Shown here one piece after another: positions 2,716 to 57,903 of a DNA stretch of 64,000 bases (the stretch's first letter is position 1; every line of letters begins with the position of its first letter). Source of the stretch: Microbacterium sp. PM5 (GTDB lineage: Bacteria > Actinomycetota > Actinomycetes > Actinomycetales > Microbacteriaceae); NCBI RefSeq assembly GCF_003293595.1, contig NZ_CP022162.1, forward strand, positions 2,735,432 through 2,799,431, read 5' to 3'. Position numbers and translations under genes: made by a program. Under the pieces are notes generated by a model. It had not been told where the DNA came from. It saw only the letters and a list, made by a program, of their open reading frames with translations, and searched no databases.

Positions 2716-3408
2716 TCAGAAGGCGGGGAGGCCGAGCGCTTCGTCGGGGTGCTCGTGGATCATGTAGGCGTCGAGGGTCGCCGAGCGGTGGCGGCGCGAT
2801 GCCTTCTCGATCTCGGCGAGCGGGGCACCGGTCTCGATGAGTACGAGGATGTTCTCGTGCTCGCGCACCGATTCGGCGGCGCGACCGGGGACGAAGCTGA
2901 ACGTCGAGTCGCGCAGATGCCCGAGTCGCGCCCACTCGGCCTGCACCAGCTCGAGCATGCGCGGGTTGGCGCACTTCTCGAACAGGATCGCGTGGAACTC
3001 CTGGTTCAGCGCGGTGAAGGCGCGGGGGTCGAAGTGCTCGAGTGTCTCGACCATCATCTCGTTGACCCGACGTGCACGGCGCACGTCTTCGACGCTGAGC
3101 GCGCGCGCCGAGAGGGCCGTCGCCGCCCCTTCGAGGATGCTGAGCGACTGCATGCTGAAGCGGTAGGCCGTGTCGTCCACCATCGATACCCGCGCGCCGA
3201 CGTTGCGCTCGAACATCACGAGACCCTCGGCTTCGAGCTGACGGATCGCTTCGCGTACCGGCACCACGCTCATCTCGAGCTCGCCCGCGATCGTGCCGAG
3301 CACGAGGCGGTAGCCGGGGGTGAACTCCTGCGACGCGATGCGCTGTTTGATCCAGTGATAGGCCTGCTGCGACTTGCTCTGAGCCGTCGCGGGTGTCAGG
3401 GGTGTCAT
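2716..3408 (-). CDS. GntR-family transcriptional regulator with FCD ligand domain
   Basis: 230-residue FadR/FCD-type regulator. An N-terminal winged helix (about residues 12-75, with the recognition-helix motif PVREAIRQLEAEGLV) is followed by an all-helical FCD domain. This carries the usual metal-site pattern: N in ALNQEFH, then histidines in REHEN and RRHRSA. It is likely the local repressor of the homoprotocatechuate genes, with an aromatic or dicarboxylate intermediate as inducer (inferred). Its ATG shares one base with the TGA of the upstream FAH-RraA gene (TGATG), so regulator and enzymes are co-transcribed and the regulator would control its own level. A candidate operator is at 4886-4897. 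Confidence 0.88.
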   Translation of the reverse strand: MTPLTPATAQSKSQQAYHWIKQRIASQEFTPGYRLVLGTIAGELEMSVVPVREAIRQLEAEGLVMFERNVGARVSMVDDTAYRFSMQSLSILEGAATALSARALSVEDVRRARRVNEMMVETLEHFDPRAFTALNQEFHAILFEKCANPRMLELVQAEWARLGHLRDSTFSFVPGRAAESVREHENILVLIETGAPLAEIEKASRRHRSATLDAYMIHEHPDEALGLPAF

Positions 3409-4859
3409 CAGCCGTTCCTCTCGCTCTCATAGCGGGCACGCCACGCGGCGTTCATCGGGAACAGGCCGTCGACGGGGTGACCGGATGCCACCTGTCGGGC
3501 GATCCACGCATCCTCCTCCTCCTGGGCGAGGGCAGCGGTCGCAACCTCCTCGGCGAGGGCGGGCGGCAGCACGACGACGCCGTCACCGTCTCCGACGAGG
3601 ATGTCTCCCGGCTCGACGGTCGTGCCGCCGCAGCCGATCGCGACGTCGGTCTCCCAAGGGATGTGGCGACGACCGAGGACGGCGGGGTGGGCACCGGCGG
3701 TGAAGACCGGGATGCCGACGGCCGCGACGGCGTCGGCATCGCGCACGCCCCCGTCGGTGACGATGGCGGCGGCGCCGCGCGCGTGGGCGCGGATCGCCAG
3801 GATGTCGCCCAGTGTCCCCGATCCGGTTTCGCCGCGGGCCTCGATGACCAGGACCTCACCCTCTGCGACCGCGTCGAACGCGCGCTTCTGGGCGTTGTAG
3901 CCGCCGCCGCGTGCGGCGAAGAGGTCTTCGCGGTGGGGGAGGAAGCGCAGGGTCCGGGCGGTGCCGACGAAGCGGCTGCCCGCGGTGAGGGGGTGCACGC
4001 CGTCGATCGTGACGTCGTTGAGCCCGCGCTTGCGCAGCTGTCCGCTGAGTGCGGCGACGGGAACGCGGGAGAGTTTCTCGCGCAGCGCGGGCGTGAGAGC
4101 CGGGGGGATTCCTGCGGCCTCGGGGGAGCCCCACGCCTCGGCGCGCTGGCGGTCGTCGACGGCGGGGAGCGAGCCGATCGCACCGTCGAGGGTGCGCTCG
4201 CCCTGCACCACGGTGGTGCGCAGCCGTCCGCTCGAGAGCGAACCGGCATCCACCTGTACCTCGACGACGTCGCCGGGAACGACCACCGACGAGCCCGCGG
4301 GCGTGCCGGTGAGGATGACGTCGCCGGTCTCGAGGGTGAAGTGCTGGGAGAGGTCGGCGACGATCTGGGCGAGCGGGAAGAGGAGCCCGTCGGTGGTGTC
4401 GTCCTGCGCGAGCTCGCCGTTGACCCAGGTGCGCAGGCGCAGATTCGCCGGATCGATGCCGACCGCGTCGATCAGTGCCGGGCCGATCGGCGTGTAGCCG
4501 TCGCCGCCCTTCGAGCGGACGTTCGAGCCCTTGTCGTTCGCGCGCAGGTCGTAGAGGCCGAAATCGTTCGCCGCGGTGATCGCGGCCACGTGCGACCAGG
4601 CGGTCTCGACCGTCGTCCATCGGGCGGGCGTGCCGATGATGAGTGCGATCTCGCCTTCGAACGCGAGCAGCTCGGTGCCGGCGGGACGCTCGACCGACGC
4701 GCCCGAGGCGGCCAGCGAGCTGGAGGGCTTGAAGAAGTACGACGGGGATGCCGGGCGGCGGCCGCGCTGGTCGGCGCGAGAGGCGTAGGCGAGGTGGACG
4801 GCGACGATCTTGCCCGGGCGCGCGCCGAGGACGGCGAACCGGCTGTCGGTGTCTGTCAT
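3408..4859 (-). CDS. Fused fumarylacetoacetate-hydrolase-family and RraA-like protein
   Basis: 483-residue two-domain protein, first gene of the leftward catabolic operon. Residues about 1-230 are an FAH-family fold: metal-binding acidic residues in FEGEIALIIG, the KGGDGYTPIGP segment and the signature GDVILTGTPAG. Residues about 270-470 are an RraA/HMG-aldolase-type fold with GDILAIRAHARGAAAIV followed by TDGGVRDADAV, which holds the Arg-Asp pair of this family. In the homoprotocatechuate pathway an FAH protein (HpaG) decarboxylates and isomerises the tricarboxylate. RraA-like proteins are aldolases or oxaloacetate decarboxylases. The fusion could therefore join an HpaG-type step to a later C-C cleavage, but this is inference. 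No separate hpaF, hpaH or hpaI is in the window. Confidence 0.85.
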   Translation of the reverse strand: MTDTDSRFAVLGARPGKIVAVHLAYASRADQRGRRPASPSYFFKPSSSLAASGASVERPAGTELLAFEGEIALIIGTPARWTTVETAWSHVAAITAANDFGLYDLRANDKGSNVRSKGGDGYTPIGPALIDAVGIDPANLRLRTWVNGELAQDDTTDGLLFPLAQIVADLSQHFTLETGDVILTGTPAGSSVVVPGDVVEVQVDAGSLSSGRLRTTVVQGERTLDGAIGSLPAVDDRQRAEAWGSPEAAGIPPALTPALREKLSRVPVAALSGQLRKRGLNDVTIDGVHPLTAGSRFVGTARTLRFLPHREDLFAARGGGYNAQKRAFDAVAEGEVLVIEARGETGSGTLGDILAIRAHARGAAAIVTDGGVRDADAVAAVGIPVFTAGAHPAVLGRRHIPWETDVAIGCGGTTVEPGDILVGDGDGVVVLPPALAEEVATAALAQEEEDAWIARQVASGHPVDGLFPMNAAWRARYESERNG

Positions 4860-37149: not shown

Positions 37150-37222
37150 CCGTCGTCCTTCTGTGAGGCTCCGGGGCACGGCCGACACCGCAGATCCCGC
37201 CGCGGCGTGCGCGACGGCATCC

Positions 37223-37370
37223 GTGCTGCCTCCCATCCGGACTAGCGATCGGGTTCTCGTTGAACCGTCACGCATCACCGTCGGTCCCGGAATTCCACCG
37301 GATCAACCCCTCCTGGGAGGAGCTCGCGGACTGTCACCGCCGGTTCGGATTCACACCGACCCCGGAGCAC
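37223..37370 (-). promoter_or_regulatory. FMN riboswitch (RFN element)
   Basis: The leftward leader of ribD carries the conserved RFN pattern: GGGGTCGGTGTGAATCC, ACCGGCGGTGACAGTCC, a variable hairpin (CTCCTCCCAGGAGG), GTGGAATTCCGGGACCGACGG, and the closing CTAGTCCGGATGGGAGGCAG. GTGCT at the start pairs with AGCAC at the end as helix P1. It ends 74 nt before the ribD ATG. FMN binding should lower expression of the whole operon; without a T-rich terminator, translational control or Rho is possible. Confidence 0.95.
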
Positions 37371-37441
37371 GTTTCTTGCACTTGATCCTAGTCAACGCCC
37401 TGCAGAGGATTTCATTCCGTGTCGGTGCAGAGCGCGCTGCC

Positions 37442-38921: not shown

Positions 38922-38972
38922 CCCCGCCCGCCCGCCCGCCCGCCCGACCCGCCCGCCTGCCCGACCCGTCCC
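38922..38972 (-). repeat. (CCCG)n tract with G-quadruplex potential
   Basis: The plus strand reads five tandem CCCG units then imperfect copies (CCCGACCCGCCCGCC and on). On the strand of the GNAT gene this is a run of GGGC/GGGT units, with at least eight GGG tracts separated by 1-4 nt, ending 14 nt before the start codon. It meets the usual intramolecular G-quadruplex pattern and would be in the mRNA leader. Confidence 0.7.
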
Positions 38973-38976
38973 GACG

Positions 38977-39051
38977 GTGCATAACTCCGCCTGAACGGTG
39001 CCGCCGCCTCGTTTCGCGACAACCGCAACCTCTTCAGATGGAGTTGTGCAC
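38977..39051. repeat. Long-loop hairpin, 5' side of DUF559 module 1
   Basis: Left arm GTGCATAACTCCGCCTGAA (38977-38995) pairs with right arm TTCAGATGGAGTTGTGCAC (39033-39051), 16 of 19 positions matching, around a 37-nt loop. It ends 101 nt before the start of the DUF559 gene. The arm sequence recurs in the hairpin at the other end of the gene. Confidence 0.8.
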
Positions 39052-39152
39052 GGCATCCGCGAACCCCTCCCCAGCGCAGCATCCGAGCGTTCTGTCCGCA
39101 GATCGACTGACACGCCGGCCCTGCATCCCGGCGCCGGTCGAGCATCGTCGTC

Positions 39153-40037
39153 GTGGACCAGGTTGAATGCGTGAGTTCCCGAGAACTACGACAGGCGGGC
39201 ATGAGCCGTCGCCAGATCACCGACGCCGTACGCGCGGGCGCGATCATCCGCGCCCGCCGCGACCACTACCTGGTGGCTGACGCACCCCGGTCGATCGTCG
39301 CGGCCGTGCGCGTCGGGGGCCGGTTGACCTGTCTCAGTCTGCTCGCCGCCGAGGGGGTGTTCGTGTTCGCCAACGATGCCCTCCACGTGCATCTTCAGCG
39401 CGGGTCGAGCAGACTGCGCGGCGCCGAAGGGGTTCGTACGCCGATTTCACCTCGGCATCGGCGAGACCGGCTGACGCTGCACTGGCTCCCGCTGATGCAG
39501 CCGGATCGGGCGAATTCGGTGCGTGTGGGCCTGCTCGATGCTCTCGCGCACTCCGTGCTCTGTCAGCCTCCCCGGCACGCTATCGCGACCCTCGACAGTG
39601 CACTGAACCGCGGCGCGATCGTGCGCTCCGATCTCGACCGGATCTTCGATGTGCTGCCGCGGAAGTATGGTGCGCTGAGGCCGCTGGTCGACGGTCGGTC
39701 GCAGGCCGGATCGGAGACCCTCGTGCGTCTGATGGTGCGCGCGACGGGGGCGCACGCGGAGCCGCAGGTGTTCTTCCCCGGCGTCGGCTGGGTCGACCTG
39801 CTGGTCGAGGGATGGCTGGTCATCGAGTGCGACAGCCGGCAGTTCCATTCGGACTGGAGGCAGCAGGTCAAGGACCGCGACCGGGACCTCGCGCTGGCCG
39901 CCCAGGGCTGCGTCGTGCTGCGGGTCACGGCCGCTCAGGTCTTCTTGCGCCCGCAAGACGTGCAGGCCGCGATCCGAGCCCTTCTCCGCGCACACGCCGT
40001 TGCCCGGCCTCGGCCGGCACGCTCGCGGCGTGCGTAA
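39153..40037 (+). CDS. DUF559 nuclease-like protein with AbiEi-type N-terminal domain (module 1)
   Basis: 294 residues. The N-terminus (about 7-75) has the AbiEi_4-like winged-helix pattern (SRRQITDAVRAGAIIRARRDHYLV). The C-terminal domain (about 185-285) is DUF559/Vsr-like, PD-(D/E)XK superfamily, with E188 (SETLVR), D215 (WVDLLVEGW), E225/D227 (VIECDS), H232 and the KDRDRDLALAAQG helix. These residues suggest a functional nuclease. The start is GTG at 39153; a GTG at 39171 is equally possible, and neither has a clear ribosome-binding site. Long-loop hairpins flank the gene, and its TAA stop is inside the first arm of the downstream hairpin. No toxin partner (AbiEii) is adjacent. Function unknown. 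Confidence 0.82.
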   Translation: MDQVECVSSRELRQAGMSRRQITDAVRAGAIIRARRDHYLVADAPRSIVAAVRVGGRLTCLSLLAAEGVFVFANDALHVHLQRGSSRLRGAEGVRTPISPRHRRDRLTLHWLPLMQPDRANSVRVGLLDALAHSVLCQPPRHAIATLDSALNRGAIVRSDLDRIFDVLPRKYGALRPLVDGRSQAGSETLVRLMVRATGAHAEPQVFFPGVGWVDLLVEGWLVIECDSRQFHSDWRQQVKDRDRDLALAAQGCVVLRVTAAQVFLRPQDVQAAIRALLRAHAVARPRPARSRRA

Positions 40038-40104
40038 CTCCGCCTGAGCTCGTCGCCGGGTGGCATTCCGGGGCGGGATGCCGCGATGAGGCGGAGTTGT
40101 GCGC
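40030..40104. repeat. Long-loop hairpin, 3' side of DUF559 module 1
   Basis: Left arm GTGCGTAACTCCGCCT (40030-40045) and right arm AGGCGGAGTTGTGCGC (40089-40104) match at 13 of 16 positions, with a perfect AACTCCGCCT core and a 43-nt loop. The left arm overlaps the last codons and TAA stop of the DUF559 gene. It is nearly the same as the hairpin at 38977-39051. It ends 53 nt from the trpS stop. Confidence 0.8.
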
Positions 40105-56760: not shown

Positions 56761-56846
56761 GTTCACAACTCCGGAGTTTCCGAGCAGGTTCGGCCCTCGG
56801 GGACACGGATCGGCCTGTCCGCTCACCGTTCTCCGGAGTTGTGAAC
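56761..56846. repeat. Long-loop hairpin, 3' side of DUF559 module 2
   Basis: GTTCACAACTCCGGAG (56761-56776) and CTCCGGAGTTGTGAAC (56831-56846) are perfect 16-bp arms with a 54-nt loop. The gene-proximal arm (56831-56846) encodes the last residues VHNSGE of the frame-repaired DUF559 product. The arms are the same as in the hairpin on the other side of the gene. Confidence 0.85.
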
Positions 56847-57718
56847 TCGCACCGTGCGCGGCGTGGTGCGAGGGCCGCGGGCTACCGCCCGCCGGAGAAC
56901 CTCGATCACCCATTCCGGACGGAAGAGGATGTCCTCGGCGAGCAGCCGCAGGGTCGTGAAGCCGAGTCCGATTGCGGCGGCATCCTGCGGCGGTCTCGCT
57001 TGTGATCCCCCCACGACCCGTGGTGCGAGAGACTGTCGCACTCGATGACAAGCCAACCGTCGACGAGGAGATCCACTCGGCCGACGCCGTCGATTCGCAC
57101 CTGCAGTTCCACGTGGCATCCCAGACTGCGCAGCATGAGGCGGACGAGGGTCTCGGTACCCGCCTCCGCACGTTGGTCGAGAAGCGGCCGCAGGGATCGG
57201 TAGCGCCCGGGAAGGTGCGCGAAGACGTCAGCGAGACCGTCTTCATCCACTGCCCCGAGATGCCACGCGCTGTCGAGAGTCGCGATTGCATCCCGAGGCC
57301 GCTGGCAGCGCACCGCTGCACATAGTGCTTCGCGGACAGGTACGAGCACATCATCGGCGGCGCTGGAGGTGGGACGCCAATGTCGGACGATCTCCGTCGA
57401 CGCCCCCGGTCGCGGCGTGCGGGAGGCGTCCGGAGCGAGCTGGATGTGCAACCCCGCACGCTCCCGTACGAACACGCCGAGAAGCCGCAACAGTGAGACG
57501 CAGTCCAGGCGCCCGCCCCACTGCACCGCCGCGCACACCTGCGGATCGGTGTCCCGGGGCAGATAGCGATCCCTCCGCAGGCGCAGGAGCCGTCCGTCGC
57601 GCACCGCGTCGGTGATCTCTCGGCCGGTGACTCCCGCGGCGAGCAGGTGAGCACGCCGCAGAACAGCGGTGGGGACGCCGCTGGGCAGAACGAGGCGGTC
57701 GGCAGGAGATCGGAGCAT
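56823..57718 (-). pseudogene. DUF559 nuclease-like gene with frameshift (module 2)
   Basis: Paralogue of the gene at 39153-40037: AbiEi-type N-terminus (ITDAVRDGRLLRLRRDRYL), the shared RDAIATLDSA segment, then a DUF559 domain with E189, D216 and E226/D228 (VIECDS). After DHKRDRR near 56986-56990 the frame is lost and a premature stop occurs at 56906 (270 residues). The missing C-terminus, AIGLGFTTLRLLAEDILFRP, is found intact in the next frame and runs to a stop at 56823. Inserting one base gives a 298-residue product, matching the 294 of module 1. So either a recent 1-nt deletion or a sequencing error. Hairpins flank it on both sides, the 3' one overlapping the end of the frame. Confidence 0.82.
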
Positions 57719-57813
57719 GTCCAGAACTCTGACCGCGACGCCCGTGGGGTGGGGCTCTGTGCGCCGCCTCGGTGGATGACCCGGTTCAGTCGGAGGCGGG
57801 GGAGGAGTCGTCG

Positions 57814-57903
57814 CCGTTCACAACTCCGGAGATGCGCTCGCGACCGTCGGCCACAGCCCTGGCTGGGGGCGGTGTACCGAGGGATCTCCGGAGTTGTGAA
57901 CGG
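57814..57903. repeat. Long-loop hairpin, 5' side of DUF559 module 2
   Basis: CCGTTCACAACTCCGGAGAT (57814-57833) and ATCTCCGGAGTTGTGAACGG (57884-57903) are perfect 20-bp arms around a 50-nt loop, ending 95 nt before the gene start. The core GTTCACAACTCCGGAG is identical to the 3' hairpin of this module. Confidence 0.87.

Follow-up and report, generated by a model that had tools for sequence, protein, structure and literature searches.

A nuclease gene family paired with matching, helically spaced inverted repeats in Microbacterium and its relatives

Two nuclease cassettes in the window

We analyzed a 64,000-nucleotide stretch of Microbacterium sp. PM5 (contig NZ_CP022162.1, positions 2,735,432 to 2,799,431), here called the window, which contains two cassettes built on one common plan: dyad, gene, dyad. 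A dyad is a pair of inverted arms separated by a long spacer, and has no assigned strand. In module 1, a plus-strand gene of 294 amino acids (39153..40037) lies between an upstream dyad at 38977..39051 and a downstream dyad at 40030..40104, the latter overlapping the last codons of the open reading frame (ORF). Both have arms of type A (GTGCATAACTCCGCCTGA ... TCAGATGGAGTTGTGCAC) and a span of 63 from AACTCC to GGAGTT, with different spacers. The left arm recurs as a direct repeat, GTGC[A/G]TAACTCCGCCTGA, at 38977 and 40030 (94% identity), and the right arm as GGAGTTGTGC[A/G]CGGC at 39040 and 40093 (93% identity). In module 2, dyads of arm type B (GTTCACAACTCCGGAG ... CTCCGGAGTTGTGAAC; span 74) at 56761..56846 and 57814..57903 enclose a minus-strand ORF of 270 amino acids (56906..57718), a relative of the module 1 gene; here the direct repeats CCGTTCACAACTCCGGAG (56759 and 57814) and TCTCCGGAGTTGTGAAC (56830 and 57885) are 100% identical. 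As left and right arms recur at the same offset within each module (1053 and 1053; 1055 and 1055), the two dyads of a module have equal arm spacing while their spacers differ. The pattern AACTCCN{30,60}GGAGTT matches twice in the window, compared to 0.03 matches expected, and none of 100 shuffled sequences reached two. An initial annotation had described a DUF559/AbiEi gene between two near-identical long-loop inverted repeats and a similar plan, with different but internally matching arms, at 56761-57903; both layouts are indeed there.

The module 1 protein matches AbiEi_4 (E 4e-7), MTES_1575 REase (8e-8) and DUF559 (5e-4), the latter two just below their curated cut-offs, and the module 2 protein gives a weaker MTES_1575 match (1.6e-4), also below cut-off. 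Neither protein matched NCBIfam. In module 1, the AbiEi-like N-terminal part covers model residues 6-180 and a Vsr/EDxHD-like nuclease domain covers 184-283, with E188, D215, E225, D227, H232 and D241 conserved. On these matches, the family is a predicted DNA-binding half of AbiEi type fused to a nuclease fold of the Vsr/EDxHD type. Module 2, including both dyads, is conserved in a sister genome, Microbacterium sp. oral taxon 186 (G059); the two copies of its ORF differ in length by one base within the nuclease part, and hence the window copy is probably broken there.

With the module 1 protein as query, relatives were found in 56 of 59 genomes of the genus (E 1e-8), in 50 of 80 Microbacteriaceae genomes (E 1e-40) and, in a phylum-wide sample, in 11 of 149 genomes at E 1e-15, our own included (10 of 148 others). 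Plasmid and phage collections yielded four records and one record, respectively, at E 1e-5. A 4.9-kb phage record from human feces, MT839994.1, encodes a 33% identical relative at 3368-4102.

Matching dyads and arm types in other genomes

To score flanking regions, we used a pair test that looks for dyads on either side of a gene, with 12-nt arms, similar spans and arms that match across the gene, and counted a locus as passing at a score of at least 42 of 48. This threshold was set on loci of the genus; loci from 29 other genera, 304 windows elsewhere in related genomes and loci outside the family were scored after it had been fixed. Close relatives within the genus passed at 44 of 56 loci, compared to 27 of 335 mismatched flanks, and an earlier, stricter span match on genus loci gave 40 of 56 versus 14 of 328. 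The mismatched control is highest within the genus because many cassettes there share AACTCC. Among the 29 other Microbacteriaceae genera, one locus each (the best match per genome), 16 passed, versus 10 of 300 mismatched flanks; outside the family, the figures were 7 of 12 and 3 of 132. None of the 304 windows elsewhere in related genomes passed. For 13 distant genes, which were the next best-scoring and hence a non-random set, six passed. Short spans occur among the passing pairs, 31 and 35 in two of the 16 from other genera and 30 and 32 in two of the seven from outside the family. The genus set derives from at least 60 listed places with at least 40% identity; 56 were tested, L063 was dropped for too little flanking sequence, and G046:C4, G055:C338 and module 2 of our own genome (already seen in the window) were left out.

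These data provide evidence, at the level of sequence, that a gene-plus-flanking-dyad system is common in Microbacteriaceae and also present beyond it. They bear out the earlier proposal of a nuclease-linked palindromic module, as matching dyads flank these genes far above controls, and the outcome named as its refutation, related genes without flanking palindromes, is opposite to what all three sets (genus, other genera and the small set from outside the family) showed. The rule may extend more widely than one family. Loci L270, L273, L274, L275, L277, L278 and L280 hold relatives from outside Microbacteriaceae (same order, class or phylum) between matching dyads.

Each typed gene carries its own arm sequence at both ends, and arms vary between genes. 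AACTCC is one arm type among many, present in 20 of 44 typed modules, and we rejected it as the defining signal. AACTCCG-type palindromes, proposed at the outset as a search signal, are thus real, yet a search for them alone would have missed the rule.

Further copies of an arm type occur mainly in genomes where a cognate gene was found. Across the 59 genomes of the genus, ATTCAGTC..GACTGAAT dyads number 12 in G018 and 10 in G019, the two genomes in which the cassette with ATTCAGTC arms was found, with two per genome flanking the gene; there are three in G015, one in G037 and none in the other 55, and a reversed control gave zero throughout. Similarly, ACGACGCMRA dyads number 31 in G043 and 7 in G057, both with cognate cassettes (two dyads in each flank the gene), compared to at most one in each of the other 57 genomes, where the single hits resemble coding sequence by eye; the control was again zero. 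AACTCC dyads show a similar contrast, with a median of 17 per genome where an AACTCC cassette was detected (19 genomes) and of 3 where none was (40 genomes; Mann-Whitney p 1e-6). The unfiltered AACTCC listings include other spans, which we took as chance or coding matches. An equal frequency of such palindromes at unrelated genes had been named as a potential refutation. Dyads do occur away from family genes, but mainly in genomes where a cognate gene was found (exceptions are G009, G016, G018, G015 and G037), and we read this distribution as support.

Mantel tests indicate that arm similarity tracks the AbiEi-like half of the protein and not the nuclease half. Within genomes, none of 19 arm pairs is similar, a difference that is not significant because just 4.1% of between-genome pairs are similar.

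Arm spacing, dispersed dyads and exchange

Spans of AACTCC dyads (n = 90) fall into discrete classes, at 61-64 (38 dyads), 73-75 (34), 84-86 (13), 94-96 (3), 106 (1) and 115 (1), with none between; the best period is 10.75 bp (R 0.93). This set comprises non-redundant dyads pooled from all loci, some of them related, with type C excluded (see below) and pairing required beyond the six-base core. The first loci had been selected at spans of 44-74, and within that range 65-72 stayed empty. Dyads of the other two arm types, ATTCAGTC and ACGACGCMRA, have spans of 71-73 and 84-85 in genomes with cognate cassettes. A pair score of at least 44 was reached at 47 of 98 loci, where the spans of the two dyads differ by 0-2 (38 loci), 10-12 (5), 19 (3) or 36 (1). 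A single-stranded hairpin need not obey the helical repeat, so spacing quantized at about 10.75 bp suggests that the arms are probably recognized as duplex DNA and contacted on one face of the helix. 'Hairpin', the term used in the initial annotation, is therefore probably the wrong word.

Some spacers share a core. In the span-72 class, a mid-spacer sequence, CGACACGCCGG, is common to genomes whose arms differ (n = 36; 10.9 bits for each sequence versus 5.4-6.2 for shuffled ones), and in the span-84 class a CGGAAT..CGCGG-like core is found with two arm types (n = 15, 11.5 versus at most 8.4; n = 26, 9.7 versus at most 6.8). We had considered CRISPR-like spacers as an explanation for the loops and dropped this idea once a central core common to different arm types was found. 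Inner pairing of the spacers is weak and mostly compositional.

Across our whole genome (3.16 Mb, one contig), AACTCCN{32,62}GGAGTT has 26 matches, two of which overlap each other, compared to one for the reversed pattern. Dyads with module arms also lie away from any family gene found, and, by this pattern, paired AACTCC copies around a family gene occur in the window only. Grouping by eye gave type A (AACTCCGCCTGA; spans of 63, with one of 64), type B (AACTCCGGAG; spans of 73-74), type C (AACTCCGCA, with doubled arms) and a small remainder, some of it perhaps due to chance. Three additional relatives in our genome (L282-L284) gave pair scores of 41-44 at spans of 31-37 or 64, which are not convincing. 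At L021 (586-684; G000, C1:3018808 region), three overlapping inverted pairs, TGTCCCACTT / AAGTGGGACA, lie upstream of another MTES_1575-type gene.

Module 1 is intergenic, with the TrpS gene on one side and a GNAT gene on the other, and we used trpS to follow this site among genomes. In the best 80 of 580 TrpS-anchored loci, a relative is the first gene after trpS at 25 (including two partial or broken copies, L163 and L165) and follows GNAT at 4; at 23, GNAT lies within 200 bp of trpS with no relative there, and the remaining 28 could not be assigned to the occupied, shifted or empty state. Typed genes at this site number 28, of which 19 have a pair scoring at least 40 and 9 do not, in a table that has no control. 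Arm types include AACTCCGCC, ATTCAGTC, CTCAGGAC, TGCAGGA, CTCCGGA, CTCCTGC and CGCAGGA. In G059 (L131), trpS is 93.9% identical to that of the window, whereas the cassette protein is just 47.6% identical and is flanked by ATTCAGTC arms. Alignable flanks stop at 38946 and 40122, 31 and 18 bp outside the dyads. This exchange pattern is repeated in L141 and L143 versus L166 (trpS 89%, cassette 48-50%, arms ATTCAGTC versus CTCCGGA). The initial annotation had proposed a comparison of presence and absence at syntenic loci; here, some genomes carry the module, some lack it and some have one of another type, in surroundings that are otherwise syntenic.

We compared 13 dyad sites of the window genome with G059; L039 and both L033 sites gave only spurious alignment anchors there, and type A site L032 lay outside the comparison. 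At type A sites, G059 conserves the dyad with its spacer (L043), keeps the arms around a different spacer (L041), lacks a tandem dyad pair (L047), or has ATTCAGTC dyads at the equivalent intergenic place (L036 and L035), so that four of the five type A sites compared show a dyad lost, exchanged for another type or altered. Types B and C are retained at all eight of theirs (L037, L038; L034, L040, L042, L044, L045, L046), with L040 and L044 partly changed. Conversely, two ATTCAGTC sites of G059, at 118314 and 894943, have no dyad at their counterparts in the window genome. Change of cassette type thus accompanies change in its dispersed dyads, although few sites are involved and some older type A dyads persist.

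The L047 pair (4044-4260; G000, C1:2938043 and 2938194) consists of two tandem type A dyads with shared upstream context, apparently a local duplication. G059 has a DUF559/MTES_1575 gene (L226:14259-15167; 302 amino acids, 33% identity with module 1) next to a double-arm dyad of type C that both genomes have; at the corresponding place in the window genome (L044; C1:2642780), the type C dyad is present and the adjoining gene is missing. Some distant-clade family members show arms 19 bp apart. Type C dyads may mark sites from which a distant-clade gene has been lost.

Pfam searches of five neighboring genes identified GNAT, Fpg/Nei and TrpS beside module 1 and adenosine deaminase and mannitol dehydrogenase beside module 2. 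At gathering thresholds, Rfam gave no match at the window dyads; its sole match is an FMN riboswitch on the minus strand at 37219-37374, adjoining a ribD-like gene.

Mechanism, alternatives and known systems

Beyond the pairing, phasing, specificity half and exchange evident in the sequences, we infer binding, cutting and copying. As a dimer, the protein would contact both dyad arms from one helix face via its AbiEi-like half; the nuclease half would nick or cut in or close to the dyad center, or else at a site that is partial or belongs to a rival; and repair would then copy the cassette, or a dyad alone, into the break, in the manner of homing. Dyads would be spread and maintained in this way, and one cassette type replaced by another as a unit. 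We give this homing-like spread, guided by gene-specific dyads, a probability of roughly one half. The fuller version, in which a homing-type nuclease with an AbiEi-like specificity half writes and rewrites its own helically phased duplex dyads, and cassette replacement overwrites the dispersed dyads of the old type in place, is offered more tentatively. It had been suggested earlier that the nuclease may cut or recognize its own hairpins. This is reasonable, but helical phasing favors duplex dyads as the thing recognized, the arms vary with the AbiEi-like half and not with the nuclease half, and cutting is conjecture.

Several observations weigh against homing-like spread. Among close relatives, 12 of 56 genes failed the pair test, as did 7 of the 13 distant ones and 13 of the 29 from other genera, and the Mantel correlation is modest. 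AACTCC dyads are abundant in some genomes without a detected cognate close-clade cassette (G009, 38; G018, 29; G016, 20), and G015 and G037 have three and one ATTCAGTC dyads, respectively, without a cognate cassette detected; for G018, locus L108 has type C-like arms, and the G016 locus was too short for the pair test. A shared central core is confined to the 72 and 84 span classes, with no spacer motif in the span-63 class (6.2 versus 5.9-6.6 in controls) and a weak signal in the 73-75 AACTCC class (7.2 versus 5.9-6.4). Because spacers within one type are mostly unlike, whole-dyad copying alone fails to explain the dyads. In three filled/empty comparisons, with flanks partly diverged, no target-site duplication was seen by eye. 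Finally, with all types counted, 9 of 13 sites keep the dyad in G059 with little or partial change.

An alternative, which we consider unlikely, is that the protein is an autoregulator with a regulon, an AbiEi-like repressor for which flanking and dispersed dyads are operators while the nuclease has some other job. AbiEi of the AbiE type IV toxin-antitoxin systems, whose fold the module protein resembles, is described as binding inverted repeats in its own promoter (PMC7319586); one dyad of each typed pair is upstream of the gene, and helical phasing fits cooperative repressors. However, the second dyad lies at or past the gene end, and type A dyads differ at four of five compared sites in the closely related G059. 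There is also no AbiEii/DUF1814-like toxin among the five checked neighbors, and a conserved nuclease active site would be left unexplained. The cassettes further differ from AbiE systems in their additional nuclease domain and in having dyads on both sides of the gene and dispersed.

Somewhat less probable is a defense or conflict module, with cassettes as exchangeable alleles of a nuclease locus, dyads that mark self DNA or tether the nuclease, and arms diversified by conflict, either with phages or between cassettes. Several findings would fit: alleles are exchanged at a single site, arm types are many, presence is patchy (of 80 loci, 25 are occupied, 4 shifted and 23 empty), PADLOC gives a weak match to AbiEi, and a survey of conflict systems names MTES_1575 among nuclease domains of Vsr type (PMC3710099). 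On the other hand, the five checked neighbors are housekeeping or metabolic genes; few relatives occur on plasmids or phages; and restriction needs no dispersed dyads. Compared to the Vsr mismatch endonuclease and DUF559 proteins (NGO0050, 3hrl), the nuclease here is joined to a half that is predicted to bind DNA, goes with palindromic dyads and has no DNA methylase gene among the five neighbors checked.

Dyads could instead be miniature transposons moved by another transposase, the nuclease gene being a passenger or domesticated neighbor. Terminal inverted repeats and filled and empty states are consistent with this, but arm type follows nuclease gene type and correlates with its N-terminal half, the spacers are unlike, and a search of our genome for Y1 (HUH) transposases with PF01797 gave no match (other transposase families were not searched), all of which makes this reading improbable. 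RNA or single-strand hairpins (terminators or attenuators, for example), suggested by inverted arms of 12-20 nt and by the location of 21 of 29 dyad places outside ORFs (crude gene call), were rejected as highly implausible, given long spacers quantized by helical turns, gene-specific arms that flank one gene on both sides and the lack of an Rfam match at the window dyads.

To our knowledge, RAYTs (REP-associated tyrosine transposases) are the only enzymes known to go with REP-like palindromes scattered through a genome. According to a paper on GTAG and CGTC palindromes, no dedicated transposase is apparent for CGTC repeats (PMC3733652). As described for RAYTs and REPINs (PMC3116915, PMC3733652), the system reported here has a chromosomal gene per type, matching palindromic doublets next to it and many elsewhere in the genome, fixed spacing of inverted arms and several types per genome. 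It differs in that the window genome has no Y1/HUH transposase by the above search, which led us to reject RAYT membership, and the window protein is AbiEi-like plus a Vsr/EDxHD nuclease; arms of typed modules show no GTAG or CGTC tag (by eye, no scan), and the spacing is quantized by helical turns, suggesting duplex recognition. The homing endonuclease I-Bth0305I has an EDxHD/Vsr-like catalytic fold with conserved residues, as here (residue-by-residue equivalence was not checked). Our cassettes have occupied, empty and exchanged sites, between which they may move. Here, however, DNA would be bound by an AbiEi-like part, the gene has a site resembling a target at either side with further copies scattered, and the window modules have no intron or interrupted host gene; homing is itself conjectural.

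We found no description of such a nuclease-dyad system in the open-access PMC literature, a scope that excludes preprints and most subscription papers, and it appears to be a small DNA system that spreads itself and that has not been described before. By analogy, it may be a functional counterpart of RAYT-REPIN built from unrelated proteins, a partner system for dispersed palindromes with many arm types and a natural replacement series between sister species. Two questions become testable: by what means a nuclease can propagate the sites it binds, and how specificity that changes across arms of at least 12 nt is encoded in an AbiEi-like fold. The many pairs of protein and site could also serve studies of DNA recognition. 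If true, the writing and rewriting of dyads by such a nuclease would represent a previously undescribed bacterial route for the dispersal of palindromes.
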